Source: Thioalkalivibrio sp. ALJ21 (GTDB taxonomy: Bacteria > Pseudomonadota > Gammaproteobacteria > Ectothiorhodospirales > Ectothiorhodospiraceae). Taken from it: a stretch of DNA of 64,000 bases. The position numbers were made by a program, and so were the translations under genes. Below, piece by piece: positions 10,120-29,904 of this stretch. Where the stretch lies: positions 1 to 64,000 of the forward strand of contig NZ_KB905155.1 of the NCBI RefSeq assembly GCF_000378605.1. The letters are read 5' to 3'. The notes under the pieces are model-generated. The model was not told the origin of the DNA and searched no databases. It saw only the letters and a list, made by a program, of their open reading frames with translations. The stretch's first letter is position 1. Every line of letters starts with the position of its first letter.

Positions 10120-10136
10120 TAACGGTCATCTCCTAC

Positions 10137-10165: not shown

Positions 10166-10187
10166 CGTTCCTGGGCCTGTGGCAGGA

Positions 10188-13753: not shown

Positions 13754-14137
13754 TTACTTGCCGAGGCCCGGAGCCGAAGAGTAGGTGCGCATGCTGTCAC
13801 GGGTTTCCCAGAGCTTCGGCTTGAGCATCGCTTCCGGGATCATGAACTTCTTGCGGTCCAGCACCTTGTGGGTACGCACGATCTTGACCACGTCGTCGTA
13901 CTTCAGCTTGAACAGGAGACCCACGTCACCGCCGGAGGTGCGGCGCACGATCATGTACTCGTCTTCCATGCTGTGCACGTAGATGTTGGCCGGGCGCAGC
14001 TTGCCGTTTTCGTCCTTCATGGTCACGGCGTAATGGCCGTTGACCTGGAATTCGCTCTTGTCCACCGCAAAGTCCTCCGCGAATGAATCAGGGGTTGATC
14101 GTCCGGACGAGCCCGCCCGAGAGCCGGTTGCGTCCAT
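13754..14137 (-). CDS. Conserved-looking protein of unknown function (127 residues)
   Basis: I do not recognise this protein. It is soluble, mixed charged and hydrophobic, with no signal peptide, cysteines or membrane segment. A flexible Ser/Gly-rich N-terminus is followed by a compact basic domain (GHYAVTMKDENGKLRPANIYVHSMEDEYMIV, then LFKLKYDDVVKIVRTHKVLDRKKF). The start was placed at the ATG preceded by AAGGAAA; longer in-frame starts run into the opposite gene's promoter area. It is divergent from the rhodanese and tusA genes of the sulfur oxidation cluster, about 200 bases away, so a link to sulfur metabolism is possible but unproven. Confidence 0.7.
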   Translation of the reverse strand: MDATGSRAGSSGRSTPDSFAEDFAVDKSEFQVNGHYAVTMKDENGKLRPANIYVHSMEDEYMIVRRTSGGDVGLLFKLKYDDVVKIVRTHKVLDRKKFMIPEAMLKPKLWETRDSMRTYSSAPGLGK

Positions 14138-14334: not shown

Positions 14335-14664
14335 ATGTACGGATTCTCGGAGATTACGGCCGACGAACTCGAGCAGTGGCGAACGGAAGGCAAGTCCTTT
14401 CGGCTTGTCGATGTACGCTCCCCCGGCGAGACGTCCCGCGGCGTCATTCCCGGTGCAGAACTGGTGCCGCTGACGGTCCTGCCGTTGCGCAAGGACGAGT
14501 TCCTGGGGGGCGACACGCCGCTGGTCCTGTATTGCCAGAGTGGCGCTCGTTCCGCCCAGGCCTGCGCGTTCCTTGCGCAGCAAGGGCTGGAGACCGCGAA
14601 CAGCCTGCGTGGCGGTATCGTGGGGTGGGCCCAGGCCGGCAAGTCGGTCGTCACCCCGGATTAG
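14335..14664 (+). CDS. Single-domain rhodanese-like sulfurtransferase
   Basis: The protein is 109 residues, one rhodanese domain, cytoplasmic. The conserved start segment is FRLVDVRSPGETSRGVIPGA, and the active-site loop is LYCQSGARS, whose Cys carries the persulfide. It lies about 140 bases upstream of tusA and the sHdr genes. It probably mobilises sulfane sulfur from thiosulfate, glutathione persulfide or a similar donor onto TusA, the first step of the cytoplasmic sulfur relay seen in other sulfur oxidisers. The donor is inferred from family and neighbours, not from the sequence. Confidence 0.88.
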   Translation: MYGFSEITADELEQWRTEGKSFRLVDVRSPGETSRGVIPGAELVPLTVLPLRKDEFLGGDTPLVLYCQSGARSAQACAFLAQQGLETANSLRGGIVGWAQAGKSVVTPD

Positions 14665-14671
14665 AATTCGG

Positions 14672-14700
14672 TTGTATTCCGATCCCATTTCCCCTATAAG
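14672..14700 (+). promoter_or_regulatory. Candidate sigma-70 promoter for tusA and the sHdr genes
   Basis: TTGTAT, a 17-base spacer, then TATAAG, about 105 bases upstream of the tusA start. The -10 element is 5/6 to consensus, the -35 element 3/6, and the spacing is ideal. Confidence 0.5.
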
Positions 14701-14804
14701 GGTGAATTCGGCTGGCAAGGGTTCGATCGTTGTGGTCCCCAAACCACCCCGGTTCGTGCCTCAGCATCCAACTGATTTTGGTAACGCACTAAAGGAGACA
14801 CACC

Positions 14805-15035
14805 ATGGCCAACTTTGACCAAGAACTCGACGCTTCCGGCCTGAACTGCCCGCTGCCGATCCTGCGCGCCAAGAAGGCCCTGGCGGCCATGGAAACCGGT
14901 CAAGTTCTGCACATCATTGCCACCGATCCGGGTGCCGTGAAGGACTTCCAGGCCTTCGCCAAGCAGACCGGCAACGAGCTGATGGAACACAAGGAAGAAG
15001 GCGGCAAGTTCTACTTCCTCGTGAAGAAGTCCTAA
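14805..15035 (+). CDS. tusA: TusA sulfur carrier protein
   Basis: This 76-residue cytoplasmic protein has the invariant CPxP motif (LNCPLPILRAKKAL, Cys15) that binds sulfur as persulfide, and the two-helix/four-strand TusA pattern. It carries a strong ribosome-binding site (AAAGGAGA). Its place between the rhodanese gene and shdrC1 identifies it as the sulfur donor in sulfur oxidation rather than the tRNA-thiolation TusA. It is predicted to take sulfur from rhodanese or DsrE and deliver it to sHdr. A stem-loop without a T tract follows, so partial read-through into shdrC1 is likely. Confidence 0.93.
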   Translation: MANFDQELDASGLNCPLPILRAKKALAAMETGQVLHIIATDPGAVKDFQAFAKQTGNELMEHKEEGGKFYFLVKKS

Positions 15036-15056
15036 GGCGTCTCTAAGTGCCTGAAA

Positions 15057-15089
15057 CGGGGCGGCGATCCGCAAGGATCGACCGCCCCG
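15057..15089 (+). other. Stem-loop between tusA and shdrC1
   Basis: CGGGGCGGCGATCC pairs with GGATCGACCGCCCCG around a GCAA tetraloop with one bulged base. There is no T tract, so it is more likely an mRNA-stabilising or processing element that lets tusA accumulate than a terminator. Confidence 0.6.
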
Positions 15090-15204
15090 ATTCCTGAAAA
15101 ACGACGGTTGCCATGCGGTAACTGGATAGGTGCCTGGACGAGGTCTAGGCTGGCTGAGCAAGGTTCTCAAGAAACCTGCATCGCCAACAGCGAAGAGGTG
15201 ACAT

Positions 15205-15897
15205 ATGGCGACATACGCTGAGATGCAGCAAATCTTCGACGACATCCGCGGAGATTTTCGCTACGACCACGAACTCAACGGCTGTCTGAACTGCGGCATC
15301 TGCACGGCAACGTGCCCCTCTGCTCAGTTCTACGACTACTCCCCGCGCGAGATCGTCCAGCTGCTGTGGACCGAAAACGTCGAGCAGATCTACGACGCGA
15401 TGCAGGAAAAGATCTGGGCCTGCGCTCAGTGCATGACCTGTGCCGCTCGCTGCCCGTTCAAGAATTCCCCTGGTGGCCTGGTCGCGATTATGCGCGAAGT
15501 GGCCATCAAGCACGAAATGCAATCCGCGAAGGACGTGCTCCGTCCGTTCGGTCGCGTGATGCTGAAGCTGATCACCACGGGTAACCAGCTGTCGCCCGAC
15601 ATGATCCAGCCCGACCACTTCCCCGACTGGGGCCCCAACATCCAGAAGGTGGAAGGTGACCTGCGCATCCTGCGCAAGGCGATTCCGGTGAAGACGCTGC
15701 AGACGGTCGAGACCGCCTGGGAAGTGTCCCTGAAGACCTCGGTCGAGATGTACACCATCTGGGAAATGACCGGGGTGCTCAAGTCCCTCGAGCTGATGGA
15801 CGAGAACCTCTTCGACGTGATCGAAGACTTCATCGACGAGAAGCGCGAGGACTACGAAGACTGGCTCGAGGAGCAGGAAGAGGAAGACGACGAGTAA
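15205..15897 (+). CDS. shdrC1: sHdrC1, iron-sulfur subunit of sulfur-oxidising heterodisulfide-reductase-like complex
   Basis: The protein is 230 residues with two classical 4Fe-4S motifs: CLNCGICTATCP (Cys27, 30, 33, 37) and CAQCMTCAARCP (Cys73, 76, 79, 83). A helical region and a very acidic tail (EEQEEEDDE) follow. This matches HdrC of the bacterial sHdr complex rather than methanogen HdrC, given the gene order C1-B1-A-hyp-C2-B2. It should pass electrons between the HdrA flavin and the HdrB1 cluster site in the cytoplasm. It begins the operon proper, with AGAGGTG before the ATG. Confidence 0.93.
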   Translation: MATYAEMQQIFDDIRGDFRYDHELNGCLNCGICTATCPSAQFYDYSPREIVQLLWTENVEQIYDAMQEKIWACAQCMTCAARCPFKNSPGGLVAIMREVAIKHEMQSAKDVLRPFGRVMLKLITTGNQLSPDMIQPDHFPDWGPNIQKVEGDLRILRKAIPVKTLQTVETAWEVSLKTSVEMYTIWEMTGVLKSLELMDENLFDVIEDFIDEKREDYEDWLEEQEEEDDE

Positions 15898-15942
15898 GTC
15901 GTCCCGTTTCCGACTCCACTCCAGGACATCAGGAGAAGCGTT

Positions 15943-17349
15943 ATGAGTGAACAGACCCCAGGCAATCACAACCAGAACGGCGAAGGTGCCGGTGCTGGCA
16001 CCATGAAGCCCGGCTTCCACAATACCGACGGTCAGGGCATCGCCGGTCACGGTTCCTTCTTCCAGGCGACCGACCTGTCCAAGGAAGACGCGATCAAGGC
16101 GACCGACTGGGTGCGCAAGCACGTCGACCGCCGCACGGTCGACCTCGGCGACCGCATGGATGACGTCCGCGAGCACATGTACGAGCTCGAAAAAGACGGT
16201 CAGATCATCATCCACCGCATCGAGGACCAGCACGAGCCGATGTCGGTGAAGACCCTGTTCGGCTGGGACAAGAAGGTCCCGACCAAGCAGCTCTGGCACC
16301 ACAAGTCCTGTGGCCAGTGCGGGAACATCCCGGGCTACCCGACCTCCCTGCTGTGGTTCATGAACAAGTTCGGCTTCGAGCCGGGCAAGGACTACCTCGA
16401 CGAGACCGACCAGACCTCCTGCACCGCGTGGAACTACCACGGTTCCGGTATCGGGAACGTCGAGTCGCTGGCAGCGGTGTTCCTGCGCAACTTCCACCAG
16501 GCCTACGTCTCCGGCAAGCAGCACGGCCACGAGCTGGGTCATTTCTACCCGCTCGTCCATTGCGGCACCTCCTTTGGTAACTACAAGGAGATCCGCAAGT
16601 ATCTGGTTGAGTCCGCCGAGCTGCGCGAGAAGGTCACCAAGATCCTTGGCAAGCTGGGTCGCCTGGTCGACGGCAAGCTGGTCATCCCGGAAGAGATCAT
16701 CCACTACTCCGAGTGGGTGCACGTGATGCGTAACCGCATCGCCTCCGAGCTGCAGACCATCGACGTATCGAATATCCGTACCACCTCCCACGTGGCGTGC
16801 CATTACTACAAGATGGTCCACGAGGATGCGGTGTACGACCCGTCCGTGCTGGGTGGCAACCGTACCGCGATCATTACCTCCACCGCCCAGGCCCTGGGTG
16901 CGCAGGTGATCGACTATTCCACCTGGTACGACTGCTGCGGCTTCGGCTTCCGCCACATCATCTCCGAACGCGAGTTCACCCGCTCGTTCACGATGGATCG
17001 CAAGATCCGCGTGGCCCGCGAGGAAGCCAACGCCGACGTGATGCTCGCCAACGACACCGGCTGCGTCACGACCATGGACAAGAACCAGTGGATCGGTAAG
17101 GCCCACAACCAGAACTTCCAGATTCCGATCATGGCGGAAGTCCAGTTCGCGGCCCTGGCCTGCGGCGCGGATCCGTTCAAGATCGTCCAGCTGCAGTGGC
17201 ACGCATCGCCCTGCGAAGACCTGGTCGAGAAGATGGGGATCTCCTGGGACGAGGCCAAGAAGACCTTCCAGGAATACCTGAAGGAAGTCGAGGCCGGCAA
17301 TATCGAATACCTCTACAATCCTGAGCTCGCTTACGGGGGCAAAGTCTGA
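15943..17349 (+). CDS. shdrB1: sHdrB1, CCG-domain catalytic subunit of sHdr
   Basis: The protein is 468 residues, longer than sHdrB2, with an N-terminal extension of about 100 residues. Cysteine-rich patches are HHKSCGQCGNIPG, HVACHYYKM and TWYDCCGFGFRH (the CCG motif), followed by NDTGCVTTM and LACGADP, which bind non-cubane iron-sulfur clusters in HdrB-type proteins. In the proposed pathway the HdrB subunits host chemistry on a bound persulfide or on lipoate. AGGAG precedes the start. The stop and the shdrA start overlap by one base (TGATG), so the two are translationally coupled. Confidence 0.92.
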   Translation: MSEQTPGNHNQNGEGAGAGTMKPGFHNTDGQGIAGHGSFFQATDLSKEDAIKATDWVRKHVDRRTVDLGDRMDDVREHMYELEKDGQIIIHRIEDQHEPMSVKTLFGWDKKVPTKQLWHHKSCGQCGNIPGYPTSLLWFMNKFGFEPGKDYLDETDQTSCTAWNYHGSGIGNVESLAAVFLRNFHQAYVSGKQHGHELGHFYPLVHCGTSFGNYKEIRKYLVESAELREKVTKILGKLGRLVDGKLVIPEEIIHYSEWVHVMRNRIASELQTIDVSNIRTTSHVACHYYKMVHEDAVYDPSVLGGNRTAIITSTAQALGAQVIDYSTWYDCCGFGFRHIISEREFTRSFTMDRKIRVAREEANADVMLANDTGCVTTMDKNQWIGKAHNQNFQIPIMAEVQFAALACGADPFKIVQLQWHASPCEDLVEKMGISWDEAKKTFQEYLKEVEAGNIEYLYNPELAYGGKV

Positions 17350-18401
17350 TGCAGCAAGATACTGTTCTAGTAGTGGGTGGTGGCCCGGCTGGGCTGGCCG
17401 CCGCCGCCAATGTCACCTCGGCCGGCTTCAAGGCCGTGATGGTCGAGAAGGAAGATGTCCTGGGCGGCGCCCCGATCCTGTCGGGTTACGCCAAGCTGGT
17501 CCCCTCTGGCGAGTGGGCGAAGGACGCCATTGGCCGCATGGTCAAGCGCGTGGAAGACGATTCCAACTCGACCGTGCACAAGGGCGCCAAGGTCGAGAAG
17601 CTGGAGGGCGAGGCCGGTAACTTCACCGCCACGCTGACCAACGGCGAGTCGGTCCAGGCCGGTGCCGTCGTGCTGGCCACGGGCTTTACCCATTTTGATT
17701 CCATCAACAAGCCGGAGTGGGGCTTTGGCACGTACGAAGACGTGCTGACCACCACCCAGATGGAACAGATGGTCGCCTCTGGCAAGATCGCCTGCCCGTC
17801 CGACGGCCGTGTGCCGGAGCGGGTCTGCATCCTGCTCTGCGTGGGTTCACGTGATCGCCAGATCGGTCGTGAGTGGTGCTCCAAGATCTGCTGCACCGTC
17901 TCCGCCAACCTGGCCATGGAGATCAAGGAACTGTCGCCGGAAACGGACGTGTTCATCTACTACATGGACATCCGCACCTTCGGCCTGTACGAAGACAAGT
18001 TCTACTGGAAGTCCCAGGAAGAGTTCAAAACCAAGTTCGTCAAGGCCCGTATCGCGGAAGTGACGGCCTCCGGCGATGGTCGCCTGCTGGTCAAGGGTGA
18101 GGATACCCTGGTCAAGCGCCCGATCGTGATCCCGTTCGACATCGTCGTGCACGCCATCGGCATGGATCCGAACGCCGACAACCCGGAGATCTCCCAGGTC
18201 TTCGGTGTCGGCCTCGAGAAGCACGGCTTTATCGAGAAGGCCGAGCAGTACACCAACACCTGTGGCACCACCCGCAAGGGCATCTACTCCTGCGGTGCGG
18301 CCTATGGCCCCGAGACGATCGATGACTCGATCGCGCAGGGTGCCGCTGCTGGTGGCCGCGCGGTTGCGGACCTGCATGCGCTGGTTTCGAAAGCCGGCTG
18401 A
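17349..18401 (+). CDS. shdrA: sHdrA, flavoprotein subunit of sHdr
   Basis: The protein is 350 residues, typical of the short bacterial sHdrA and about half of methanogen HdrA. It has an N-terminal FAD-binding loop (VLVVGGGPAGLAAAAN), a cysteine-rich insert (CILLCVGSR, then WCSKICC) that probably binds an iron-sulfur cluster, and a C-terminal flavin motif (IYSCGAAYGPETIDDSIAQG). It is the electron hub of the complex. In sulfur oxidisers it is thought to run in the oxidative direction, feeding electrons from persulfide/lipoate chemistry into carriers. It is one base overlapped with shdrB1 and about 26 bases overlapped with the next gene. Confidence 0.93.
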   Translation: MQQDTVLVVGGGPAGLAAAANVTSAGFKAVMVEKEDVLGGAPILSGYAKLVPSGEWAKDAIGRMVKRVEDDSNSTVHKGAKVEKLEGEAGNFTATLTNGESVQAGAVVLATGFTHFDSINKPEWGFGTYEDVLTTTQMEQMVASGKIACPSDGRVPERVCILLCVGSRDRQIGREWCSKICCTVSANLAMEIKELSPETDVFIYYMDIRTFGLYEDKFYWKSQEEFKTKFVKARIAEVTASGDGRLLVKGEDTLVKRPIVIPFDIVVHAIGMDPNADNPEISQVFGVGLEKHGFIEKAEQYTNTCGTTRKGIYSCGAAYGPETIDDSIAQGAAAGGRAVADLHALVSKAG

Positions 18402-19212
18402 GGTCGTCAGCGACGAGGCGGCTTCGGGTGTCAACCCGGAGCCGCTGCAGGTGACCTTTGATCAGGAGATCCTCGCGACGAAGCTGAACAGTCTGAACGA
18501 GGCCATCGCCGAAGCCGGCGGGGTCGATGGGCTGGAAACCTTCATCGAGGCATTACGGGCGAAGCATGAAGTCTTCGCCGCGACCGTCGCCAAGGGCGAC
18601 GAGATGGATGCCGAGGATCTGCGCATCCTGGGTGGTTTGGTCTTCGCCGTTCGCCGGAAGCTGGCGGGTGTGATGGCCGAACGACAGGGCGCGCTGGTAG
18701 ACGGGATGCGCGCACTTGTGCGCCCGGATACGGATCTGGACTCGCGGCTGGCGGCATTTACCGATCTGGCCGGGGACGACAAGAAACTGCGACGCGGGAT
18801 CTGGGACTTCGGTGCCGAGATCCTGCATTTCGCCGACCCCGAGACGGTCCCGCTGGCCACGCGCTGGGTCTGGGATACGGGGACGACGACTGGTGCGTTG
18901 CGCGAGTTTATTCGCGGCAACGACACCCTGCGGTCGATTCCGATTGGCGAGACCGTCGGGGCGATCGAGGGGGCCAGACGCTGGTTTTATGAGGCGCTGG
19001 CCGAGGAAGGCTTCTACCGCGACCTGCCGTTTGTAACGGATCTGGTCTGGGTGCAGGCCTACTCGGACTACGCACGTTCACTGTCGATGAGTCTGGGCAT
19101 GATCGACAACCAGTTCGGGGCCAAGCAGGACCCGCTGGAGCTGGGTGTGAAGCTGCTGGGGATCGACTCCCCGGAAGGCCGCCTGAAAGGTCACGATGCG
19201 TCGCTGCATTGA
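18376..19212 (+). CDS. Conserved hypothetical protein of the shdrC1B1A-hyp-C2B2 cluster
   Basis: The protein is 278 residues, all-helical looking, soluble, with no cysteines and no metal or nucleotide motif that I recognise. It lies between shdrA and shdrC2, where sHdr clusters always carry an uncharacterised gene, so it is that hyp protein. Its segments (LRILGGLVFAVRRKLAGVM; FGAEILHFADPETVPLATRWVWD; ARRWFYEALAEEGFYRDLPFVTD) suggest a helical adaptor. The only ATG that keeps the whole domain lies 26 bases inside shdrA. It has no Shine-Dalgarno sequence, so either coupling or a later GTG (near 18449) is used. Confidence 0.85.
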   Translation: MRWFRKPAEVVSDEAASGVNPEPLQVTFDQEILATKLNSLNEAIAEAGGVDGLETFIEALRAKHEVFAATVAKGDEMDAEDLRILGGLVFAVRRKLAGVMAERQGALVDGMRALVRPDTDLDSRLAAFTDLAGDDKKLRRGIWDFGAEILHFADPETVPLATRWVWDTGTTTGALREFIRGNDTLRSIPIGETVGAIEGARRWFYEALAEEGFYRDLPFVTDLVWVQAYSDYARSLSMSLGMIDNQFGAKQDPLELGVKLLGIDSPEGRLKGHDASLH

Positions 19213-19261
19213 ATAACGGAACGAACTTGAGCCTGGTTGCACAGGTTTTCGGAGAGACGTC

Positions 19262-19978
19262 ATGGCAATACATGAAAAGGCACTGATCGAGGACGAGCGC
19301 CTCCAGCAGCACGACGAGCTGGTGGTCGACGGCGTGGACGTGTCCGGACACTGGAACACGATGATCGCCCCGCGCACCGTTCGCGATTACGACGACGATT
19401 TCGAGACGAAGATCCAGGGCTTTGCGGGTGGCGAGAACGTGCACCGCTGCTGGCAGTGCGGGTCCTGCACCAACTCCTGCACCATGTACGCGCAGAACGT
19501 GCAGTTCAATCCGCGCTACTGGATCTACCTGACCCGCCTGGGCATGAAGGAAGAGCTGGTCAAGGACAAGGACATCATCTGGCAGTGCGTGTCGTGCAAC
19601 AAGTGCACCAACATCTGCCCGAAGGATGTGAAGCCGGAAGGCGTGATGAAGGCGCTGTCGCACTGGATGGAAGAGGAAGGGATCACCGAGAAGGCCCCGT
19701 CCACCATCTTCGACGAAGAGTTTGCCGATCAGATCTACAAGACCGGCCGCATCGAAGACTCCAAGGTGATGCAGAACTTCTTCAAAAAGACCGGCCAGCC
19801 GCTGATCCAGGACTGGATCAAGGTCTTCGTCTTCCGGATGATGAAGCACCTGCCGGTGAAGCATCTGATGGCGATGGGCATCAACACCGTACATACGCCG
19901 CGCACCAAGTCCTGGGGCAAGACCGGGGACGTGCTGAAGAACTACGTGCGCGAACAGAAGGAGGCCGCTCATGGCTAA
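19262..19978 (+). CDS. shdrC2: sHdrC2, second iron-sulfur electron-transfer subunit
   Basis: The protein is 238 residues with two 4Fe-4S motifs, CWQCGSCTNSC and CVSCNKCTNICP, and a basic C-terminal helical region. It pairs with sHdrB2, whose start lies 8 bases inside this gene, as HdrC/HdrB subunits normally do. It has an acidic 30-residue N-terminal extension not seen in sHdrC1. GGAGAGAC precedes the ATG. Role: electron transfer in the cytoplasmic sHdr complex. Confidence 0.93.
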   Translation: MAIHEKALIEDERLQQHDELVVDGVDVSGHWNTMIAPRTVRDYDDDFETKIQGFAGGENVHRCWQCGSCTNSCTMYAQNVQFNPRYWIYLTRLGMKEELVKDKDIIWQCVSCNKCTNICPKDVKPEGVMKALSHWMEEEGITEKAPSTIFDEEFADQIYKTGRIEDSKVMQNFFKKTGQPLIQDWIKVFVFRMMKHLPVKHLMAMGINTVHTPRTKSWGKTGDVLKNYVREQKEAAHG

Positions 19979-20882
19979 GGTTGCTTACTATCCGGGTTGC
20001 GCGCTCGAGGGCTCGGGTGGTCCGTATGACCGCTCCACCCGCGTGCTGGTCAAGGCGCTGGGGCTCGAGATGGAAAATCTGCGCGACTACAACTGCTGCG
20101 GCGCGATGGAGGTGAAGAACATTCACCCGATGCTGCAGACCTATCTGTCCGCGCGGAACATGGCGATTGCCTCCGAGCAGATGGGTATGGACACGGTGAT
20201 GGCGCCATGCAACGGCTGCTACCACAACCTGAAGAAGGCCGAGTACGAGACCGCGACCTCCCAGGATGCCATGGACACCGTCCAGGATCTGGCGCGCAAG
20301 TCCGACGACCCGGTCTACACCGGTGACGTCCGCACCCTGCATCTGCTCGAGTGGCTGATGGAAGAGCTGGGGCCCGAGGGCATCAAGCAGAAGATGACCA
20401 AGAGCCTGAACGGCATCAAGATCGCCAACTACTACGGCTGCATGTACACCCGTCCCCGCCAGATCTTTCCCGAGAAGGACAACGGCCCGGGTTCGGATTC
20501 CAGCTATCAGCCGCACTTCATGGATGACCTGCTGGGTGCTGCCGGTGCGGTCAATGTGGACTTTCCGCTGAAGACCTCCTGCTGCGGTGGTGCGCATACG
20601 CTGTCGGATTCCGACACCTCGACCCAGCTGGTGCTGAACCTGCTGCAGTCGGCGGAAGATTCCGGTGCCGAGGTGATCGCCACCGAATGCCCGACCTGCC
20701 ATTCCGGTCTGGAGATGCACCAGGTCCGTGCCGAGACCGAGTTCGGTATCAAGACCGACGTGAAGGTCCTGTACTTCACGCAGCTGCTGGGTCTGGCAAT
20801 GGGGCTGTCCCCGCGCAAGCTGGGTATCCACGAGAACGTGAGTGACTCCATCGGGCTTCTTAAGGAGAAGGGGGTCATCTGA
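19971..20882 (+). CDS. shdrB2: sHdrB2, two-CCG-domain subunit of sHdr
   Basis: The protein is 303 residues with two complete CCG domains. The first has YYPGC, YNCCGAMEV and APCNGC; the second has YYGCMY, TSCCGGAH and TECPTCHSG. This is the full cysteine set for two non-cubane 4Fe-4S clusters, as in methanogen HdrB, where they cleave a heterodisulfide. Here the substrate is thought to be a sulfane sulfur or the lipoate dithiol/disulfide of LbpA. It overlaps shdrC2 by 8 bases and is followed by a strong intrinsic terminator. Confidence 0.94.
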   Translation: MAKVAYYPGCALEGSGGPYDRSTRVLVKALGLEMENLRDYNCCGAMEVKNIHPMLQTYLSARNMAIASEQMGMDTVMAPCNGCYHNLKKAEYETATSQDAMDTVQDLARKSDDPVYTGDVRTLHLLEWLMEELGPEGIKQKMTKSLNGIKIANYYGCMYTRPRQIFPEKDNGPGSDSSYQPHFMDDLLGAAGAVNVDFPLKTSCCGGAHTLSDSDTSTQLVLNLLQSAEDSGAEVIATECPTCHSGLEMHQVRAETEFGIKTDVKVLYFTQLLGLAMGLSPRKLGIHENVSDSIGLLKEKGVI

Positions 20883-20921
20883 TCCCCTGATTCGAGGCCC
20901 GAATGGCCCAGTAGTATCTTC

Positions 20922-20950
20922 GAAAAACGGGCGCCAGGCGCCCGTTTTTT
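20922..20950 (+). terminator. Intrinsic terminator between shdrB2 and lbpA1
   Basis: ACGGGCGCC/GGCGCCCGT stem followed by six T residues and preceded by A residues. It ends only 27 bases before the lbpA1 start, so it should reduce rather than abolish downstream transcription. Confidence 0.88.
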
Positions 20951-20977
20951 GTGTCGATGCCAGGAACGAGGCGAAAC

Positions 20978-21424
20978 ATGGACTGCAACGGTTGCGAGTT
21001 TCATCCCGAACTGTTCTACGACGACGAGTTTCAGATCTGGCTGCGCCGCGAGGATGACGACACCCTGACCGTGGGGATGACCGACCTTTCGCAGACTATC
21101 GCGGGAAAGATCATTCACGTACGAGTGCGTCGCCCGGGTACCCGACGTCCGCCCGGGAAGCCGGTCGCCACGATCGAGAGCGGGAAATGGGCCGGACCGA
21201 TCCCGAACTTCATCGACTGCAAGATCGTCGAGGGCAACGAGGAGGTGCTGGAGAACCCGGTGCTGCTGAACTCGGACCCCTACAATGCGTGGATCGCGCG
21301 CGTCGAAGCGACCGATGGCGTCGATGCGGCACTGGAGCAGTTTCTGACCGGCGACAAGGCCGAGGAAGGTTACTGCAAGCGCGCCAAAGATGAAGACATC
21401 GAGTGTCAGCGCAAGCTGCGATAG
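20978..21424 (+). CDS. lbpA1: LbpA1, GcvH-like lipoate-binding protein for sulfur oxidation
   Basis: This 148-residue protein has the glycine cleavage H-protein fold: WLRREDDDTLTVGMTDLSQTIAGKIIHVRV, then the lipoylation loop ESGKWAGP with Lys70 as the attachment lysine. It belongs to the LbpA type by linkage to sHdr and lipoate assembly genes, not to a glycine cleavage operon. It differs from LbpA2 by an N-terminal CxxC (MDCNGC) and a basic insert (RRPGTRRPPGK). The start with GAGG six bases upstream was preferred over GTG or ATG codons lying directly on the terminator. Its dithiolane is proposed to receive sulfur or electrons in the sHdr reaction. Confidence 0.92.
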   Translation: MDCNGCEFHPELFYDDEFQIWLRREDDDTLTVGMTDLSQTIAGKIIHVRVRRPGTRRPPGKPVATIESGKWAGPIPNFIDCKIVEGNEEVLENPVLLNSDPYNAWIARVEATDGVDAALEQFLTGDKAEEGYCKRAKDEDIECQRKLR

Positions 21425-21432
21425 AGAGAACG

Positions 21433-21840
21433 ATGGCTGAACTGGGCAACGATTACTATCTGGACAACGACGAGCAGACGGTCGTGATCATCATGACCTC
21501 GGGTCCGTCGACGCCGCATCGTTGTGCGACGCCGTTCTATCTTGGGGCGGTGATGGCCTCGATGGATGTAGACGTCTATATCTTCTTCACCATGGAGGGC
21601 GTTCGCCTGATGGAGAAGGGGGTAGCCGATGACCTGCGAGCCATGGAAGATGGCAAGCTGATCAAGGATTTTATCCAGGACGCAAAACGCGCAGGCGTGC
21701 GCCTGCACGTTTGCCAGCCCGCTTTGCCGGGGTATAGAATCGACGCGTCTTCGGATCTCATCGACGAGGTCGATGAAGTGAATCGGGCGAGCGAGCTGGC
21801 GGACCTGATTCTGCGTAGCGATAAAACGATAACGTTTTAA
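21433..21840 (+). CDS. dsrE: DsrE-family sulfur-transfer protein in the lbpA cluster
   Basis: The protein is 135 residues with a Rossmann-like DsrE/F fold: VVIIMTSGPSTPHRCATPFYLGAVMASMDVDVYIFFTMEGV, then VRLHVCQPALP. The second cysteine sits where DsrE family members carry persulfide, and the first (HRCATP) may also take part. It lies between lbpA1 (8 bases away) and lbpA2, as in other sHdr clusters, where DsrE proteins exchange sulfur with TusA. GAGAGAACG precedes the ATG. Confidence 0.9.
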   Translation: MAELGNDYYLDNDEQTVVIIMTSGPSTPHRCATPFYLGAVMASMDVDVYIFFTMEGVRLMEKGVADDLRAMEDGKLIKDFIQDAKRAGVRLHVCQPALPGYRIDASSDLIDEVDEVNRASELADLILRSDKTITF

Positions 21841-21877
21841 TTTTCCCGCATTATTACTTTCACGCTTGGAGGAAAAC

Positions 21878-22315
21878 ATGGGCGCAGTACGGGGTTGTGA
21901 TATTCCGGAAGATCTGATGTACAACGTTGAAAACAACGTGTGGGTGCGCAAGGAAAGCGACGGCACCGCGACCGTGGGCCTGACCTCCTACGCGTGCTCG
22001 CTGGCCGGCACCATCGTGTCCTTCACCCCCAAGAAAGTTGGCAAGACCGTGAAGAAGGACAAGTCCTGCACCACCGTCGAATCCGGCAAGTGGGTGGGTC
22101 CGGCGAAGACCCCGGTGACCGGTGAAGTCACCGAAACCAACGACAAGGTCGCCGCCAACCCGGGTCTGATCAACGAAGACCCCTACGGCGAAGGCTGGCT
22201 GATCAAGCTCAAGCCGGAAGACTGGGACGGCGAAGTCGGCGACCTGAAGACTGGTTCCGACGCCCTGGCCGCGTTCGAGGCCAAGATGGAAGCGGACGGT
22301 TTCGGCGGCTGCTAA
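21878..22315 (+). CDS. lbpA2: LbpA2, GcvH-like lipoate-binding protein for sulfur oxidation
   Basis: The protein is 145 residues, an H-protein-like lipoyl carrier with lipoylation loop VESGKWVGP (Lys71) and the beta-barrel pattern VWVRKESDGTATVGLTSYAC. It carries cysteines near the N-terminus (RGC), before the loop (KSC) and as the last residue (GGC). It has a very strong ribosome-binding site (GGAGGAAAAC) and a terminator right after it, so it is probably the most abundant product of this section. LbpA2-type carriers are the essential lipoate proteins of the sHdr pathway in Hyphomicrobium. Confidence 0.93.
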   Translation: MGAVRGCDIPEDLMYNVENNVWVRKESDGTATVGLTSYACSLAGTIVSFTPKKVGKTVKKDKSCTTVESGKWVGPAKTPVTGEVTETNDKVAANPGLINEDPYGEGWLIKLKPEDWDGEVGDLKTGSDALAAFEAKMEADGFGGC

Positions 22316-22332
22316 GCCCCTGCCGAGCCTCG

Positions 22333-22366
22333 GGCCGCCGTTCCCCAGTGTTCGGCGGCCTTTTTT
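22333..22366 (+). terminator. Intrinsic terminator between lbpA2 and lipS1
   Basis: GGCCGCCG-12-CGGCGGCC stem followed by six T residues, 26 bases before the lipS1 start. Confidence 0.88.
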
Positions 22367-22392
22367 GATTCTGTGGTATCCGGAGCAAGCTG

Positions 22393-23571
22393 ATGACGAC
22401 CTGGAACGAGGTGATCCAGCGGGTCGAACCCCTGGAAGACATCCCTGTCGATGCGGCGTTGGTGAATGACCTTCAGCACAGCGTTCAGCGGGGCTCCGAT
22501 CCCGGATCGGTTCATTTCTATACCCCGACGTTCAAGTCGTACCAGTCCAGCGAACTCGCGGACTGCGGCAAGAGCGCCTGGCCGGCGATGTCGATCACCG
22601 GAGGCGACTGCAAGCTCGCCTGTGACCATTGCAAGGCCAAGATCCTCGACCCGATGATCCCGGTGCGTACGCCGGAAGACCTCTGGGCGCAGGTAAACAA
22701 CGTGATCGAGTCCGGTGCCCAGGGTATGCTCCTGACCGGTGGCTCGAACCACCGTAACGAGGTCGAGTACGACCCGTACTACTCCACGATTCGTCGTATC
22801 AAGGACGAATTCCCGGAATTTCGTATCGCGCTGCACACGGCGCTGGTCGATGACAACATCGCGACGTCGATGGAGCAGGCCGGCATTGACGCAGCGATGA
22901 TGGATGTGATCGGCGCCCAGGACACAATCACGCAGGTCTACCACCTGCGCCGCAGTGTGGATGACTTCGAGCAGACGCTCGAGAGCCTGGTGAACACCAA
23001 TATGAAGGTGGTGCCGCACATCGTGATCGGCCTGCACTACGGCAAGCTGCTGGGCGAGTGGAACGCGCTGGAGATGCTTGCGCGCCACCTGCCGGACGCC
23101 GTGGTGCTGGTGGTCGTGATGCCGTTTTACGCCCCGGCGAGCCGCCCCTTCGAGACCCCGGACGTGCATGCGGTCGGGCGCTTCTTCCACGATGCGCGCG
23201 AGCGCCTGGGGGATACCCCGTTGCTGCTCGGCTGCGCGCGCCCGCCGGGCGAGGCCAAGAGCCAGATCGACAGCTATGCGGTGATGGCCGGTCTGTCCGG
23301 TATTGCGCACCCGGCCGAGGGCGTGGTCGAACTGGCCGCGCGTCTGGGCAAGAAGGTCCGCGTGACGCCGGCCTGCTGCTCGATCGCCGTGGGCGACGAG
23401 GTCATGGCGGACGGTACTGCGGTCGAGAGCGGTGTCGAGATCGACCTGGATACGATCGTGGCCGAGGAGGCCCGGCGTCGCGAGCAGGAACGCAAGGCGC
23501 GCCAGGGCCTGGGCGGGATTCGTATCGTCACCGAGGGCAATGTCGCGGCCGGAGGCGGTTGCCATGTCTGA
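22393..23571 (+). CDS. lipS1: LipS1-type radical SAM lipoyl synthase component
   Basis: This 392-residue radical SAM protein has the cluster motif CX3CX2C at Cys73, 77 and 80 (GDCKLACDHC). The barrel segments that follow include MLLTGGSNHRNEVEY and MKVVPHIVIGLHYGKL, and the C-terminal cysteines (VRVTPACCSIAVGDEV and GGGCHV) are candidates for the auxiliary, sulfur-donating cluster. In the described LipS1/LipS2 pathway two radical SAM proteins insert the C6 and C8 sulfurs into octanoyl-LbpA. First place in the lip gene set and direct linkage to sLpl support LipS1. It overlaps the ligase gene by 8 bases. Confidence 0.9.
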   Translation: MTTWNEVIQRVEPLEDIPVDAALVNDLQHSVQRGSDPGSVHFYTPTFKSYQSSELADCGKSAWPAMSITGGDCKLACDHCKAKILDPMIPVRTPEDLWAQVNNVIESGAQGMLLTGGSNHRNEVEYDPYYSTIRRIKDEFPEFRIALHTALVDDNIATSMEQAGIDAAMMDVIGAQDTITQVYHLRRSVDDFEQTLESLVNTNMKVVPHIVIGLHYGKLLGEWNALEMLARHLPDAVVLVVVMPFYAPASRPFETPDVHAVGRFFHDARERLGDTPLLLGCARPPGEAKSQIDSYAVMAGLSGIAHPAEGVVELAARLGKKVRVTPACCSIAVGDEVMADGTAVESGVEIDLDTIVAEEARRREQERKARQGLGGIRIVTEGNVAAGGGCHV

Positions 23572-24655
23572 ACGTGATCAGAAGACCCTGCGTGTCCTCG
23601 ACACCGGACTGCGCGCGGCGGCCGAGAACATGGCCTTCAATCGGGCCCTGCTCGAGTGCCATCAGGAAGGCGTATCGCCGCACACCCTGCGCTTCTTGCA
23701 GTTCGAGCCCTGCGCGCTGGTGGGTTTCCACCAGAACGTGGACCAGGAGATCAACACCGAGTACTGCAAGGAACACGGTATTGCGATCCAGCGCCGGATC
23801 ACCGGTGGTGGCGCGATCTACTTTGATTCCACCCAGCTGGGCTGGGAGCTGTACCTCGACAAGCGGTTTCTCGGGACGGCCGACATGGGGCAGATCGCCG
23901 CGCGCATCTGCAATGCCGCGGCCGCCGGGATTCGCACGCTGGGCGTCGACGCACAGTTCCGCCCGCGCAATGACATCGAGGTCGAAGGTCGCAAGATCTC
24001 CGGCACGGGCGGCGCATTCGATGGCGACTCGATCATGTATCAGGGCACGCTGCTGATCGAGTTCGATGTCGAGGACATGCTGCGCATTCTGCGGATTCCG
24101 GCCGAGAAGCTCTCCAACAAGGCGATCGAGTCGGCCCGTGATCGTGTGGTCAATCTGGCGACCCTGCTGGGCGAACGCCCGGATCTGGATCATGTGAAGG
24201 ACGCGATTGCCAAGGCCTTTGCGGAAGAGTTCGCGGTCGAGCTGGCCCCATCGGATCTGCTGCCCGAGGAGCAGGAGTCCTTCGAACAGGCCCTGGCCGA
24301 GATCGACACCGAAGAATGGGTCTACCAGCGCAACCGCCCGGCCACCGATGCCCCGATGTTCGAGAGCATCTTCAAGTCTGACGGCGGTCTGATGCGCGTA
24401 GGTGTCGCCCTGGACCCGGAGCGCAAGCGTCTGAAGCAGCTCTGGCTGACGGGTGACATCTTCGTGAAGCCTGCGCGTACCATTGCCGACCTGGAAGCGG
24501 CCCTGCGCGACACGCCGCAGGCCGAGATGGAAGAGCGCGTGCGAGCCTTCTTTGCCGAGCGCGACGTCGAGATGCTGCAGTTGGCGGTGGATGACTTTAT
24601 CGCGGCGATCCAGTCGGCCCTGGCGATGGCCGAGACCGAGGAGCCGGCGGGATGA
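23564..24655 (+). CDS. slpl(AB): sLpl(AB), LbpA-dedicated lipoate:protein ligase
   Basis: The protein is 363 residues with an LplA-type catalytic domain (residues 1 to about 250). It has ITGGGAIYFDSTQLGWEL (the family RRxTGGGxVxHD region with unusual Tyr-Phe-Asp), RPRNDIEVEGRKISGTGGAF containing the catalytic Lys of GRKISG, and a C-terminal accessory domain like LplB/LplA-C. The A and B parts are fused in one chain. It should adenylate octanoate or lipoate and attach it to LbpA. GGAGG lies eight bases before the ATG; the start lies within the lipS1 end. Confidence 0.9.
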   Translation: MSERDQKTLRVLDTGLRAAAENMAFNRALLECHQEGVSPHTLRFLQFEPCALVGFHQNVDQEINTEYCKEHGIAIQRRITGGGAIYFDSTQLGWELYLDKRFLGTADMGQIAARICNAAAAGIRTLGVDAQFRPRNDIEVEGRKISGTGGAFDGDSIMYQGTLLIEFDVEDMLRILRIPAEKLSNKAIESARDRVVNLATLLGERPDLDHVKDAIAKAFAEEFAVELAPSDLLPEEQESFEQALAEIDTEEWVYQRNRPATDAPMFESIFKSDGGLMRVGVALDPERKRLKQLWLTGDIFVKPARTIADLEAALRDTPQAEMEERVRAFFAERDVEMLQLAVDDFIAAIQSALAMAETEEPAG

Positions 24656-24693
24656 AGGCCCTTTGCGCGGTACTCGCCGGGAGGCAGCAGTAA
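24652..24693 (+). other. 13-codon mini-ORF bridging sLpl and lipT
   Basis: ATG AAG ... CAG TAA: its start overlaps the sLpl stop (ATGA) and its stop overlaps the lipT start (TAATG). It contains the GGGAGGCAGCAG that serves as lipT ribosome-binding site. It may pass ribosomes from one gene to the next, or may be chance. Confidence 0.3.
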
Positions 24694-25775
24694 TGCTCCC
24701 CGAGAAGGTCGATGTCCTGGTCGTCGGGCTGGGGCCGGGCGGCGCCTCGGCGGCGCGCGTGTGCGCGGCGGCCGGGCTGTCGGTCCTGGCGGTCGAGCGC
24801 AACAAGGCCTTCGGCGAGCCGGTACAGTGCGCGGAGTTCATCCCGAATCCCATGGGTGCCTATGCCAAGGCAGACGGGGTCCTGCTGCAGCGCATCGATT
24901 CGATGCAGAGCTTCCTTCCCTCCGGGGCCGTGGAGCACTCCGACTTCCCCGGCCTGATGGTGGATCGCGGCGAGTTCGACCGCGCGATTATCCAGGCGGC
25001 GAAGGCCAACGGCGCGCAGCTGGTGACTTCGACCCCGCTGCAGCGCGTGGATGCCGAGCGTCATGTGGCCACCGTCAAGCACCAGGGGCAGGAACACTCA
25101 GTCGAGTACCGTGTTCTGATTGCCGCCGATGGCCCGCATTCTCCGGTGGCCGAGTCCCTGGGGCTGCCCGCGCTGCCGGTCGTGCAGACCCGGCAGTACA
25201 CGGTGCCGCTCAAAAAGCCGTATACCGCGACCGATGTCTGGCTGTCGGACGACTACCCGGGTGGATACGCCTGGCTGTTCCCCAAAGGGGAGTGGGCGAA
25301 CCTGGGGCTGGGCGCGGACAAGCGCATCGAGAATGACATGAAGACGCCGCTGGAATCCCTGCATGCCCAGCTCGTCGAGCAGGGACTGCTGGGCGAGGAG
25401 ATTCGTCACCGCACAGGCGGCGCGATCCCGGTCGGTGGGCTGCGTGATTCGCTGTACCAGGGCGATGTCCTGTTCGTGGGCGATGCGGGCGGGTTTACCC
25501 ATCCGATTACCGGGGCCGGGATTGCCGCGGCGGTGGTGTCGGGCGAGGCGGCAGGCGAGGCCGCGATCGCGCATCTCGAGGGTGACGCCGAGGCCTTCGA
25601 CGATTACGATGAAGAGATGCGCGATCAGTACGGTCCGGCCCTGGAACGCGCCTGCAAGCGCCGCGCGTTCCTGAATGAACACTGGCGGACGCCGCGGGCG
25701 CAGGAAGATGCCACGCAGCGCCGCGGATGGATTGCTTTTTCCGAGTATTTCAACGATGGTGACCAGGCCGCGTAG
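24693..25775 (+). CDS. lipT: LipT, FAD-dependent oxidoreductase (geranylgeranyl-reductase-like)
   Basis: This 360-residue flavoprotein has FAD-binding VDVLVVGLGPGGASAARVCA, ribose-binding VERN, the RGEFDRAI segment, and the second FAD motif GDVLFVGDAGGFTHPITGAGI. It matches the geranylgeranyl reductase family member encoded between sLpl and lipS2 in sHdr-linked lipoate assembly clusters. It is thought to supply electrons to the LipS1/LipS2 radical SAM reactions. The start with GGGAGGCAGCAG upstream was taken; the frame is open for 70 further codons upstream but those overlap sLpl. Confidence 0.9.
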   Translation: MLPEKVDVLVVGLGPGGASAARVCAAAGLSVLAVERNKAFGEPVQCAEFIPNPMGAYAKADGVLLQRIDSMQSFLPSGAVEHSDFPGLMVDRGEFDRAIIQAAKANGAQLVTSTPLQRVDAERHVATVKHQGQEHSVEYRVLIAADGPHSPVAESLGLPALPVVQTRQYTVPLKKPYTATDVWLSDDYPGGYAWLFPKGEWANLGLGADKRIENDMKTPLESLHAQLVEQGLLGEEIRHRTGGAIPVGGLRDSLYQGDVLFVGDAGGFTHPITGAGIAAAVVSGEAAGEAAIAHLEGDAEAFDDYDEEMRDQYGPALERACKRRAFLNEHWRTPRAQEDATQRRGWIAFSEYFNDGDQAA

Positions 25776-25825
25776 GCCCGGTTGGCGGGTGCCCCGCACC
25801 CGGTGAACAACGCTGGAGGAATTCC

Positions 25826-26998
25826 ATGAGTGCAAGTGCAGAGGAGATGGTCGCGCCGATCAACTTTTACCGGCCCGACTATCACATCAAGACCCCGGAC
25901 ATGCGTTCGCCGGAGTACGTGCAGATGTCCACGGCGGCTGCGATCACGCTGGGCCTGGTGCCGGGCACCATGCACCGTACGTCCTGCACCCACTGCCTGA
26001 ACCTGCTGGTCACCTATCCGGAAGGCTGCCGCGCGAACTGCTCCTACTGCGGCCTGGCGCGCCACCGCGAGGAATCGCGTGACTACGCCGACCGCAACTT
26101 CATCCGCGTGGACTGGCCGACCGCCCGCTACGACGAGGTGATCGAGCGCGTCAAGAACAACTCCGATGCCGGCCAGTTCGAGCGCATGTGCATCTCCATG
26201 ATCACGCACCCGAACTCCGACGCCGACACCGTCGAGCTTCTGGAGAAGTGGGTCGCCGAGGTCAACCACATCCCGGTGTCGATCCTGTCCAACCCGACCA
26301 CCATGAGCTACGAAGACCTCCAGCTCCTGCGGGACAAGGGCGCCGACATCTTTACGGTCGCGCTGGATGCGGTGACCCCGGAGATCTTCGAGCGCACCCG
26401 TGGCAAGTCGGTCGAAAGCCCGCATAGCTGGGACAAGTACTGGCAGGCGATCGAGTGGGCCGCCGAGATCTTCGGTCCGGAGAAGTTCGGTGCCCACCTT
26501 ATCTGCGGCATGGGCGAGACCGAGGAAGAGATCCTGCAGGTCTGCCAGCGCATCCGTGACCTGGGTGGCCACAACCACATGTTCGCCTTCTTCCCGGAAG
26601 AGGGCTCGCTGATGGAAGACTGGAACCCGGTCCCGCGTGACCAGTGGCGCCGCGTTCAGCTGGGCCGCTTCGTGATCGACTACGCCGGCGGCCGCATCGA
26701 CGACATGAAGTTCAACGCCGACGGCCAGGTGGTGGACTTCGGTCTGCCTCAGTCCGAGGTCGACGAACTGATCGCCTCCGGCAAGCCGTTCCAGACCTCC
26801 GGCTGCCCCGGCAAGTCGGACGAGGAAGTCTCGGCCTGTAACCGCCCCTACGGCGATTCCAGTCCGACGGACATCCTGTCCTTCCCGTTCGCCCTCAACT
26901 CGACGGACGTCGGGTTCGTCCAGCGGCAAATGGCCGGGGAGGATGTCGGCACCTTCGACTTCGATGCCGACGAGGCCGAGGACGAGAAGTCCGCATAA
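25826..26998 (+). CDS. lipS2: LipS2-type radical SAM lipoyl synthase component
   Basis: This 390-residue radical SAM protein has the radical SAM cluster motif CX3CX2C at Cys68, 72 and 75 (GCRANCSYC) and upstream cysteines SCTHC at 54 and 57. A C-terminal block, SGCPGKSDEEVSACNRPYGDSSP, looks like an auxiliary-cluster site with a possible serine ligand, as in classical lipoyl synthase. Together with LipS1 it replaces LipA. It has a strong ribosome-binding site (GGAGGAATTCC) and is followed by a hairpin terminator, closing the lipoate assembly genes. Confidence 0.9.
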   Translation: MSASAEEMVAPINFYRPDYHIKTPDMRSPEYVQMSTAAAITLGLVPGTMHRTSCTHCLNLLVTYPEGCRANCSYCGLARHREESRDYADRNFIRVDWPTARYDEVIERVKNNSDAGQFERMCISMITHPNSDADTVELLEKWVAEVNHIPVSILSNPTTMSYEDLQLLRDKGADIFTVALDAVTPEIFERTRGKSVESPHSWDKYWQAIEWAAEIFGPEKFGAHLICGMGETEEEILQVCQRIRDLGGHNHMFAFFPEEGSLMEDWNPVPRDQWRRVQLGRFVIDYAGGRIDDMKFNADGQVVDFGLPQSEVDELIASGKPFQTSGCPGKSDEEVSACNRPYGDSSPTDILSFPFALNSTDVGFVQRQMAGEDVGTFDFDADEAEDEKSA

Positions 26999-27038: not shown

Positions 27039-27248
27039 GCACGTCAGGGGGGTTGATTAGACGTTTTGAATATTCAGGTTTCGAGCGGGGATATTTCAGG
27101 GGCCCCGTCGAAAGAGCTCCCGGGGGGATGGGTCGTCCACCCGCGAGCGGTCACTGCACCACATAACCGGACCGGCGGCAGACAAGGGGGCCGCAGGTAA
27201 CCGGAGGTGCCGGGCCATACAACAAGAAGACCACCAAAGGAGAACAAC

Positions 27249-28577
27249 ATGGAAGCACGCATCATTCGCCGCAGTCTGGTGACGGTCGCGGTCGGCCTTG
27301 CAATGGGCAGCGCCGGCGTCGCCAATGCCACCAACGGCTACTTCTCGCACGGCTATGGCACCAAGGCCAAGGGCATGGGCGGGGTCGGCATGGCCATCTC
27401 CCAGGACGCCTACGCCCCCGGCATCAACCCCGCCGGTATCGCAGGCATGGAGTCCCGCATCGACGGCTCGCTCACTTACTTCCGCCCGGAACGGTCGTTC
27501 GAGGCCAGTGACCCCCACCGGCAAGCACAGGAAGGTGAATTCCCGCTCGCCGGTGGAAGTGTCGACAGCGACAGCAATAACTTCTTTATTCCTTCTCTCG
27601 CCTTTGTTCAGCAGATCGATGCCGACCGCTCCTGGGGTATCGCCTTGCTCGGTAATGGCGGGATGAATACGGATTATCCAGCGATCTCCCGCGACTGCAG
27701 TGGCGATGGCCAACCCGAGTCTGGCGCGGGAGTTTTCTGTGATGGCACCGCAGGTGTGAACCTCGAACAGCTTGCGATCATCCCGACCTATGCCCAGAAG
27801 TTTGCCGATGGCCGGGTGAGCGTGGGTTTCAGCCCGATTATTAGCTACCAGCGCTTCAGCGCAGAAGGGATCGGATCGTTTGGTGAGTGGAGCGAAGATC
27901 CGGACAACCTGAGTAGCGGTCGGACAGATTCGAGCTGGGGATATGGTGCACAGATCGGCGTCCAGGCCGAACTGGCCGAAGGGGCTCGGGTAGGTGCGAG
28001 TTATCGTTCCAAGATCCGGGCTGGCGATTTCGACCGCTACGCCGGGTTGTTTGTAAATGGCGGGGAGTTCGACATACCGTCGACGTACGGGCTTGGCTTC
28101 TCGGTGGATGTTAGCCCCCGTGTGACTCTCTCTGCCGATTATCAGAGGATCCGTTATTCCGAGATTGATGCAATTGCCAATCCGTCCGCCAATATTTACG
28201 GCGTGATGGCGGGTGATCCCGATTCACGATTCGGTGGATCCAATGGTCCTGGGTTTGGCTGGGATGACGTAGATGTGTTCAAGTTTGGTGCCCAGATCGA
28301 CGGGGGTAACGGCTGGATCTGGCGGGTAGGTTACAACCGAGGCGAGAACCCGATCAGCTCGGACGATGTGACCCTCAACATCCTCGCGCCCGCTGTGATG
28401 GAAGACCACTTTACCTTCGGCTTTACCCGCGAATTCGGACAGCACGAACTGAATTTCGCTGCCATGTATGCGCCACGTCAGCGGGTCAGGGGCGAGAACT
28501 TGTTCTACCAAGGGCAAGAGGTCGAGATCGAGATGCGGCAGTACGAGCTCGAGATCGGGTACGCGTACCGCTTCTGA
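27249..28577 (+). CDS. FadL/OmpP1-family outer-membrane porin
   Basis: The protein is 442 residues with a signal peptide (SLVTVAVGLAMGSAGVANA). It starts with the FadL-type mature N-terminus (TNGYFSHGYGTKAKGMGGVGMAISQDAYAPGINPAGIA) and ends with aromatic beta-strands and a terminal Phe (YELEIGYAYRF), as needed for outer-membrane insertion. FadL proteins admit hydrophobic molecules across the outer membrane. It sits directly after the lipoate and sHdr genes, so import of a hydrophobic sulfur compound or fatty acid is possible. The middle and end of the gene use more A/T-ending codons than the neighbours, a hint of different ancestry. AAAGGAG precedes the start. Confidence 0.88.
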   Translation: MEARIIRRSLVTVAVGLAMGSAGVANATNGYFSHGYGTKAKGMGGVGMAISQDAYAPGINPAGIAGMESRIDGSLTYFRPERSFEASDPHRQAQEGEFPLAGGSVDSDSNNFFIPSLAFVQQIDADRSWGIALLGNGGMNTDYPAISRDCSGDGQPESGAGVFCDGTAGVNLEQLAIIPTYAQKFADGRVSVGFSPIISYQRFSAEGIGSFGEWSEDPDNLSSGRTDSSWGYGAQIGVQAELAEGARVGASYRSKIRAGDFDRYAGLFVNGGEFDIPSTYGLGFSVDVSPRVTLSADYQRIRYSEIDAIANPSANIYGVMAGDPDSRFGGSNGPGFGWDDVDVFKFGAQIDGGNGWIWRVGYNRGENPISSDDVTLNILAPAVMEDHFTFGFTREFGQHELNFAAMYAPRQRVRGENLFYQGQEVEIEMRQYELEIGYAYRF

Positions 28578-29847: not shown

Positions 29848-29904
29848 GGCCGGGGGCTGGACTTGTTTATGCTCCCGGTTCACTCGCGGCAGGACGCACG
29901 CCCC

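Follow-up and report, generated by a model that had tools for sequence, protein, structure and literature searches.

Content and layout of the locus

The stretch of DNA analysed here (the window) comprises 64,000 nucleotides from Thioalkalivibrio sp. ALJ21 (contig NZ_KB905155.1, positions 1 to 64,000) and carries a gene cluster of the sHdr-LbpA type. Its fifteen genes, from rhd to lipS2 (14335-26998), are all open frames on the + strand (Table 1). Each named product except Hyp contains the expected domain: Rhodanese, TusA, Fer4 (C1 and C2), CCG (B1 and B2), FAD/NAD (A), GCV_H (both LbpA proteins), DsrE, Radical_SAM (LipS1 and LipS2), LplA-B_cat, and in LipT a FAD protein of the geranylgeranyl reductase type. 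In the alignments of relatives, the cysteines of the complex, the lipoylation lysines and the radical S-adenosylmethionine (SAM) motifs occupy nearly invariant columns.

Table 1. Genes of the cluster and the divergent gene u137. Residue counts are from alignments of relatives that include the window and genome G009.
Feature	Position	Strand	Evidence
u137 (divergent small protein)	13754..14137	-	127 aa from likely ATG; conserved
rhodanese (rhd)	14335..14664	+	PF00581 E 2.2e-15; C67 38/38
tusA	14805..15035	+	PF01206 E 2.2e-25; C15 51/51
shdrC1	15205..15897	+	Fer4_8; 8 Cys, each 54/54
shdrB1	15943..17349	+	CCG PF02754 E 3.6e-6; 10 Cys, 56 or 57/57
shdrA	17349..18401	+	PDB 6tjr E 2.5e-143, residues 5-338; 5 Cys, each 82/82
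hyp (all-helical)	18376..19212	+	family-less; AF2 (AlphaFold2) model
shdrC2	19262..19978	+	Fer4_8; 8 Cys, each 68/68
shdrB2	19971..20882	+	two CCG stretches E 3.2e-27; 10 Cys, each 66/66
lbpA1 (start codon uncertain)	20951..21424	+	PF01597 E 5.1e-28; K79, C15, C152 62/62
dsrE-type sulfurtransferase	21403..21840	+	PF02635 E 7.8e-18; two Cys 62/62
lbpA2	21878..22315	+	PF01597 E 4.6e-38; K71, C7, C145 62/62
lipS1 (radical SAM lipoyl synthase, part 1)	22393..23571	+	NF053742 199.5 bits (cut-off 230)
slpl(AB) lipoate/octanoate:protein ligase	23564..24655	+	PF21948 E 3.7e-50
lipT (FAD oxidoreductase, geranylgeranyl-reductase type)	24693..25775	+	TIGR02032 200.2 bits (cut-off 158.8)
lipS2 (radical SAM lipoyl synthase, part 2)	25826..26998	+	NF053743 196.6 bits (cut-off 270)

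The order C1-B1-A-hyp-C2-B2 together with lbpA and the maturation genes is the arrangement defined as Group I (PMC6067878). In genome G434, all fifteen counterparts are 94-100% identical and stand in unchanged order at about 672-685 kb, a position consistent with the locus tags TK90_0638-0642; G434 is probably Thioalkalivibrio sp. K90mix. The closest named records by sHdrA, among the best 80 of 425 sHdrA-bearing stretches, are Thioalkalivibrio strains with up to 99% identity. In our reading, then, the cluster is the sHdr-LbpA locus for sulfur oxidation, of the Group I type, in a Thioalkalivibrio closely related to K90mix (probability about 0.95).

The system as such is already known. PMC6067878 describes the Group I arrangement for all Proteobacteria and Aquificae analysed. 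It finds the maturation genes "strictly" within that operon, and three bacterial genomes to be without them. LbpA1, LbpA2 and the ligase of K90mix were tested in the same study (TK90_0638 is lbpA1, TK90_0642 the ligase), and the K90mix genes lipS1-slpl(AB)-lipT-lipS2 modify LbpA in Escherichia coli (PMC10332631). sLpl(AB)-LipS1/S2 of K90mix act on LbpA and not on other lipoyl proteins (PMC6067878, PMC10332631), and others have shown LbpA2 to be needed in Hyphomicrobium denitrificans. sLpl(AB) is needed in H. denitrificans as well, and LipS1/S2 occur in 74.3% of sHdr-containing bacteria (PMC10332631). The series hdrC1B1A-hyp-C2B2-lbpA1-dsrE-lbpA2 was reported for 73 of 75 Thioalkalivibrio genomes (PMC6382920). 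With the Group I arrangement published and the experiments on K90mix done, the finding is thus not new, and the locus is an ordinary one from a neighbouring strain or species of the published one.

Compared with the TK90_0638 to 0642 region of K90mix, gene content and order are the same and, if G434 is K90mix, the above protein identities apply; there is no notable difference. H. denitrificans shares the sHdr complex, LbpA2 and the lip genes but has one LbpA only (PMC6067878). Its island is regulated by sHdrR/SoxR (PMC12423496), whereas no such regulator is found among the fifteen genes here. The hdr locus of Acidithiobacillus ferrooxidans (rhd-tusA-dsrE-hdrC1B1A-orf2-hdrC2B2) has the same core order and the same unexplained gene, orf2 corresponding to hyp, but unlike the window it is listed with dsrE between tusA and hdrC1 (PMC2754497).

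Assignment of the proteins and the expected sulfur route

Could the genes instead encode a methanogen-type electron-bifurcating heterodisulfide reductase accompanied by ordinary glycine-cleavage H proteins? For the A subunit this is refuted. sHdrA, with 350 aa, is far shorter than the methanogen HdrA chains (643-671 aa), and its match to PDB entry 6tjr is 84 orders of magnitude better than that to the best methanogen HdrA (E 2.5e-143 versus 2.5e-59). The entry 6tjr, which the PDB listing calls simply a flavoprotein domain protein, is taken here to be the sHdrA of H. denitrificans. LbpA1 and LbpA2 are GcvH-like (PF01597) and both carry the lipoyl lysine together with an N-terminal and a C-terminal cysteine (62/62 each), which mark LbpA and are reported to be lacking in GcvH (PMC6067878). 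Neither reaches the cut-off of the GcvH equivalog TIGR00527 (115.85 bits; LbpA2 100.3, LbpA1 60.5), and the two lbpA genes stand between the shdr and the lip genes. The radical SAM motif CxxxCxxC is invariant in LipS1 (C73, C77, C80; 56/56) and LipS2 (C68, C72, C75; 53/53), which are 99.5% and, in two pieces, 96 and 100% identical to their G434 counterparts, respectively.

Several results weigh against our assignment. The closest NCBIfam models for A, B1, B2 and C1 are those of CoB-CoM HdrABC and the closest for C2 is QmoC, though all score far below cut-off. LbpA2 (127 bits) exceeds the cut-off of the GcvH subfamily PRK01202 (117), so that this model alone would name it GcvH; LbpA1 (96.2) stays below. 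The comparison of sHdr with methanogen proteins covered the A subunit. LipS1 and LipS2 remain under the curated NCBIfam thresholds (Table 1), and the G434 and G015 proteins do likewise. In sLpl(AB) the catalytic domain is clear and the LplB model matches at 270-353 with 50.6 bits, below its cut-off of 65. Finally, genome G009, discussed below, has sHdr and LbpA without the dedicated lipoate line, so that the line may be dispensable in some cases, or else the pathway idle in G009. Taken together, we consider a methanogen-type reductase with glycine-cleavage proteins highly improbable. The preliminary description had listed the same genes in one direction with their cysteines, lysines and radical SAM motifs intact, and had considered the core not new; in all of this it was right. 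The outcome that it held to be refuting, best hits to methanogen-type proteins, did not occur for HdrA.

According to the published model, the sulfurtransferases Rhd, TusA and DsrE would hand sulfane sulfur on to the carriers LbpA1 and LbpA2 in their lipoylated form, and it would be oxidised to sulfite by sHdr, a cytoplasmic complex of C1, B1, A, C2 and B2. sLpl(AB) would load the lysine of LbpA with free octanoate or lipoate, LipS2 and LipS1 would insert sulfur at C8 and C6, and LipT probably supplies electrons. That this strain does the same is inferred, as are the direction in which sulfur flows, the electron acceptor and what Hyp and u137 do. All 30 genomes of the genus encode a canonical LipA; hence the dedicated lipoate line is an addition, as published.

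No dsrA scores above the family cut-off in the window genome, and soxB (10188-11999, - strand; TIGR04486, 813.8 bits) lies 2.3 kb upstream of the rhodanese gene, beyond a gene for an M48 protease. The sHdr system is therefore the expected route for sulfane sulfur. The distribution of dsrA is mixed: among nine genomes it is above the cut-off in G009, G011, G015, G017 and G454, and not in the window genome, G434, G441 and G455. A weak match to the dsrA model (50.3 bits, below cut-off) lies at 52878-53240 (+), inside a large frame (50685-53615), and similar ones occur in G434, G009 and G011. The soxB/M48 neighbourhood recurs in several Ectothiorhodospira loci.

Linkage of the lip genes and its exceptions

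Gene order was compared in the 80 best sHdrA-bearing stretches, with counts taken over the loci that have enough sequence. lipS1 comes next after lbpA2 in 53 of 54 loci, and tusA precedes C1 in 46 of 47. Adjacent pairs are fully conserved for tusA-C1 (49/49), hyp-C2 and C2-B2 (60/60 each), lbpA1-dsrE and dsrE-lbpA2 (55/55 each) and lipT-lipS2 (37/37). A rhodanese gene before tusA is less constant (34/46), the misses including all seven Ectothiorhodospira loci. As this order recurs in other genera, a chance arrangement is excluded. L081 is a real rearrangement with slpl ahead of lipS1. Several other order misses (L045, L048, L047, L060, L066, and for the lip genes L105 and L107) are an effect of the distance rule on stop-to-stop frames, the genes being present; the stretches L042, L045 and L048 break off shortly after lbpA2 and were left out of the lip linkage counts. 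At least one of C1, B1, hyp, C2 and B2 accompanies sHdrA in 72 of the 80 loci. By the thresholds of this analysis sHdrA stands alone in eight, which are seven records with Acidithiobacillus in the title and L072, a metagenome-assembled genome titled Phycisphaera. Of these eight, L074 was inspected: its sHdrA (9992-11047), a second paralogue that is 83% identical to that of the window, occurs without other sHdr genes, as in seven other loci, and a frame upstream of it resembles a MerR-type regulator when read by eye. Across the phylum sample of 398 genomes sHdrA is uncommon, seven having it at E 1e-70, the window genome among them.

Within Thioalkalivibrio the linkage is looser. LipS1 was found in 25 of 30 genomes of the genus and in 21 of the 23 better ones (at least 90% complete, at most 5% contaminated), the misses being G009 and G011. 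LipS2 was found in 24 and 18, respectively, missing also from G002, G006 and G017; in the latter two a contig ends within the lip operon. A ligase with at least 65% identity to sLpl(AB) is present in 24 of the 30. In all five stretches examined (G015, G017, G437, G007, G016), lipS1 stands not behind lbpA2 but beside a divergent second ligase gene that is about 31-40% identical to sLpl(AB) (7959-9851 of L142 in G015; also L143, L144, L147 and L148). The genes after lbpA2 could be seen in G015 only (L053, taken as G015), with no lip genes among them. These relocated lip operons depart from the "strictly" same operon of PMC6067878.

This bears on the view, taken in the preliminary description, that sulfur mobilisation, oxidation and cofactor synthesis form one unit. 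As a statement on gene order it is borne out by most relatives, but the unit is not obligatory: the lip operon lies elsewhere in the five genomes, and gaps of 140 bp (rhd-tusA) and 169 bp (tusA-shdrC1) separate rhd and tusA from the genes that follow them. In A. ferrooxidans, moreover, when tusA-hdr changed on sulfur, rhd did not change with it (PMC2754497). A scan for promoters and terminators gave nothing above chance (1 promoter versus 3.0 expected, 13 terminators versus 10.9 expected), and a promoter-like string read by eye between rhd and tusA was not reported by it. The suggested synteny comparison thus gave a typical order in relatives together with exceptions within the genus, and with the lip operon relocated in five of its genomes and absent from the complete, sHdr-positive G009, the proposal that the locus is a good reference for what is essential is not supported.

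G009, a complete genome on a single contig, keeps sHdr, LbpA1 and LbpA2 with the lipoyl lysine. In this genome neither a protein search (E 1e-20) nor the family model (E 0.001) found LipS1; a protein search for LipS2 (E 1e-20) was likewise negative, and no ligase exceeds 30% identity to sLpl(AB). Two weak matches to the LipS2 model (E 4.6e-12 and 2.4e-5) are of a kind that G000, G434 and G015 have besides their true LipS2. Since G009 possesses LipA and two other Lpl-family proteins, the dedicated line could be replaceable, other ligases and LipA lipoylating LbpA, and the linkage would then reflect regulation or co-transfer rather than need. The strong constraint on the sHdr, LbpA and DsrE genes of G009 is consistent with this (pairwise ratios of nonsynonymous to synonymous substitution rates, dN/dS, of 0.013-0.177 against G015). 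Yet the lipoylation machineries of E. coli and Bacillus subtilis do not modify LbpA (PMC10332631, PMC6067878), and deletion of slpl(AB) leaves LbpA2 of H. denitrificans unmodified (PMC10332631). Furthermore, G009 has rDsr (dsrA above cut-off), so that sHdr may be little used there and the loss may be recent. In 7 of 8 comparable genes of the sHdr locus, dN/dS is higher between G009 and G015 than between G015 and G017, most clearly for C2 (0.116 versus 0.041) and B2 (0.045 versus 0.021); no G015-G017 value was obtained for lbpA1, and a G011 value listed under lbpA1 was dropped, being a mis-hit on LbpA2. The same is true for four of five neighbouring genes (rhd, tusA, soxB and m48, not u137). 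We consider replaceability of the line a somewhat unlikely explanation.

In G011, a single-contig, dsrA-positive genome, the genes from C1 to most of dsrE are lost; rhd, tusA and an intact LbpA2 with its lysine and both cysteines are kept. A dsrE remnant is followed by the orphan lbpA2 (L149, 10652-11585). Possibly, LbpA2 also works apart from the sHdr complex, for example as a sulfur carrier in organisms with rDsr, and its dN/dS between G009 and G011 (0.089) does resemble that of soxB (0.079) and m48 (0.092). However, the deletion may postdate the split, so that the constraint may be inherited; the dsrE remnant suggests decay, and no orthologue of LipS1, LipS2 or sLpl(AB) was found in G011. 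Such a role is therefore quite unlikely. Combining both ideas, LbpA in rDsr-bearing Thioalkalivibrio would be tied neither to the dedicated line (in G009 a route through other ligases and LipA) nor to sHdr (in G011 sulfur transfer by LbpA2), with u137 perhaps a Group I accessory; we put this forward as an unlikely, speculative picture. The dsr and hdr pattern of the two genomes agrees with what PMC6382920 gives for strain ALEN2, which has both dsr and hdr, and for ARh1, which has dsr but lacks hdr; G009 may be ALEN2 and G011 ARh1.

Hyp, u137 and neighbouring genes

Hyp has no family match, its best PDB sequence match being E 0.3. Its AF2 model is helical and of good confidence (predicted local distance difference test score, pLDDT, 84.3; predicted template modelling score, pTM, 0.83; 40 sequences), and Foldseek gave no PDB fold match below E 0.54. 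The A. ferrooxidans counterpart, orf2 (AFE_2552), has already been singled out as unexplained (PMC2754497).

u137 has no Pfam or NCBIfam match either. Its alignment of 35 sequences contains 12 invariant columns and a conserved Y-S-S-x-P-x-x-G-K-like end, and its AF2 model is an SH3/Tudor-like barrel of moderate confidence with weak likeness to known SH3/Tudor folds (E 0.044 at best, with a query-based TM-score of 0.31). In 38 of 46 testable loci the gene is found on the opposite strand, no more than 1.8 kb upstream of tusA; in seven of the other eight it is farther off. It is seen near most Group I loci, including those of Ectothiorhodospira, Sulfuriferula and Acidithiobacillus. In the order sample, 40 of 47 genomes have u137 and 39 have sHdrA: 37 have both, 5 neither, 3 u137 only and 2 sHdrA only. 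Among the 38 better genomes of the order, the respective numbers are 35 with both, 2 with neither (G441, G454) and 1 with u137 only (G011). In the phylum sample, u137 was found in 1 of 398 genomes, that of the window. A strict sHdr accessory was considered and is weakened, as G011 keeps u137 without sHdr, the gene is far from sHdrA in G455, and six of the seven sHdrA-positive genomes of the phylum sample lack it (both samples taken as the same 398 genomes). Thus u137 tracks Group I loci in this part of the tree without being strictly bound to them. No mention of it was found in the available parts of the published sHdr accounts, where a nameless gene cannot be searched by name.

Directly downstream of the cluster lies a gene for a FadL/TodX-type outer membrane protein (27207-28577, +; PF03349), which is 64-86% identical in the nearest Thioalkalivibrio loci and 25-43% in other loci with such a porin; a link to octanoate uptake is speculation. 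Farther on, a second lipoate-ligase-like gene (30328-31374, +; PF21948, E 1.5e-20) is flanked by conserved small genes (29863-30324 and 31429-31815). As it also occurs in G009 and G011, it is probably not bound to sHdr. At 32469-35884 (+), an AAA ATPase with a GvpN-type match below cut-off is followed by a large partner without a match, a pair that looks like CbbQ/CbbO.

As an example of the published arrangement, the locus adds one genome, and its use is comparative. Hyp and u137 are its two conserved proteins that await explanation. G009, in which the cofactor line is lost and the complex kept, and G011, in which the complex is lost and one carrier kept, are natural tests of the dependence of LbpA on sLpl(AB)-LipS1/S2.

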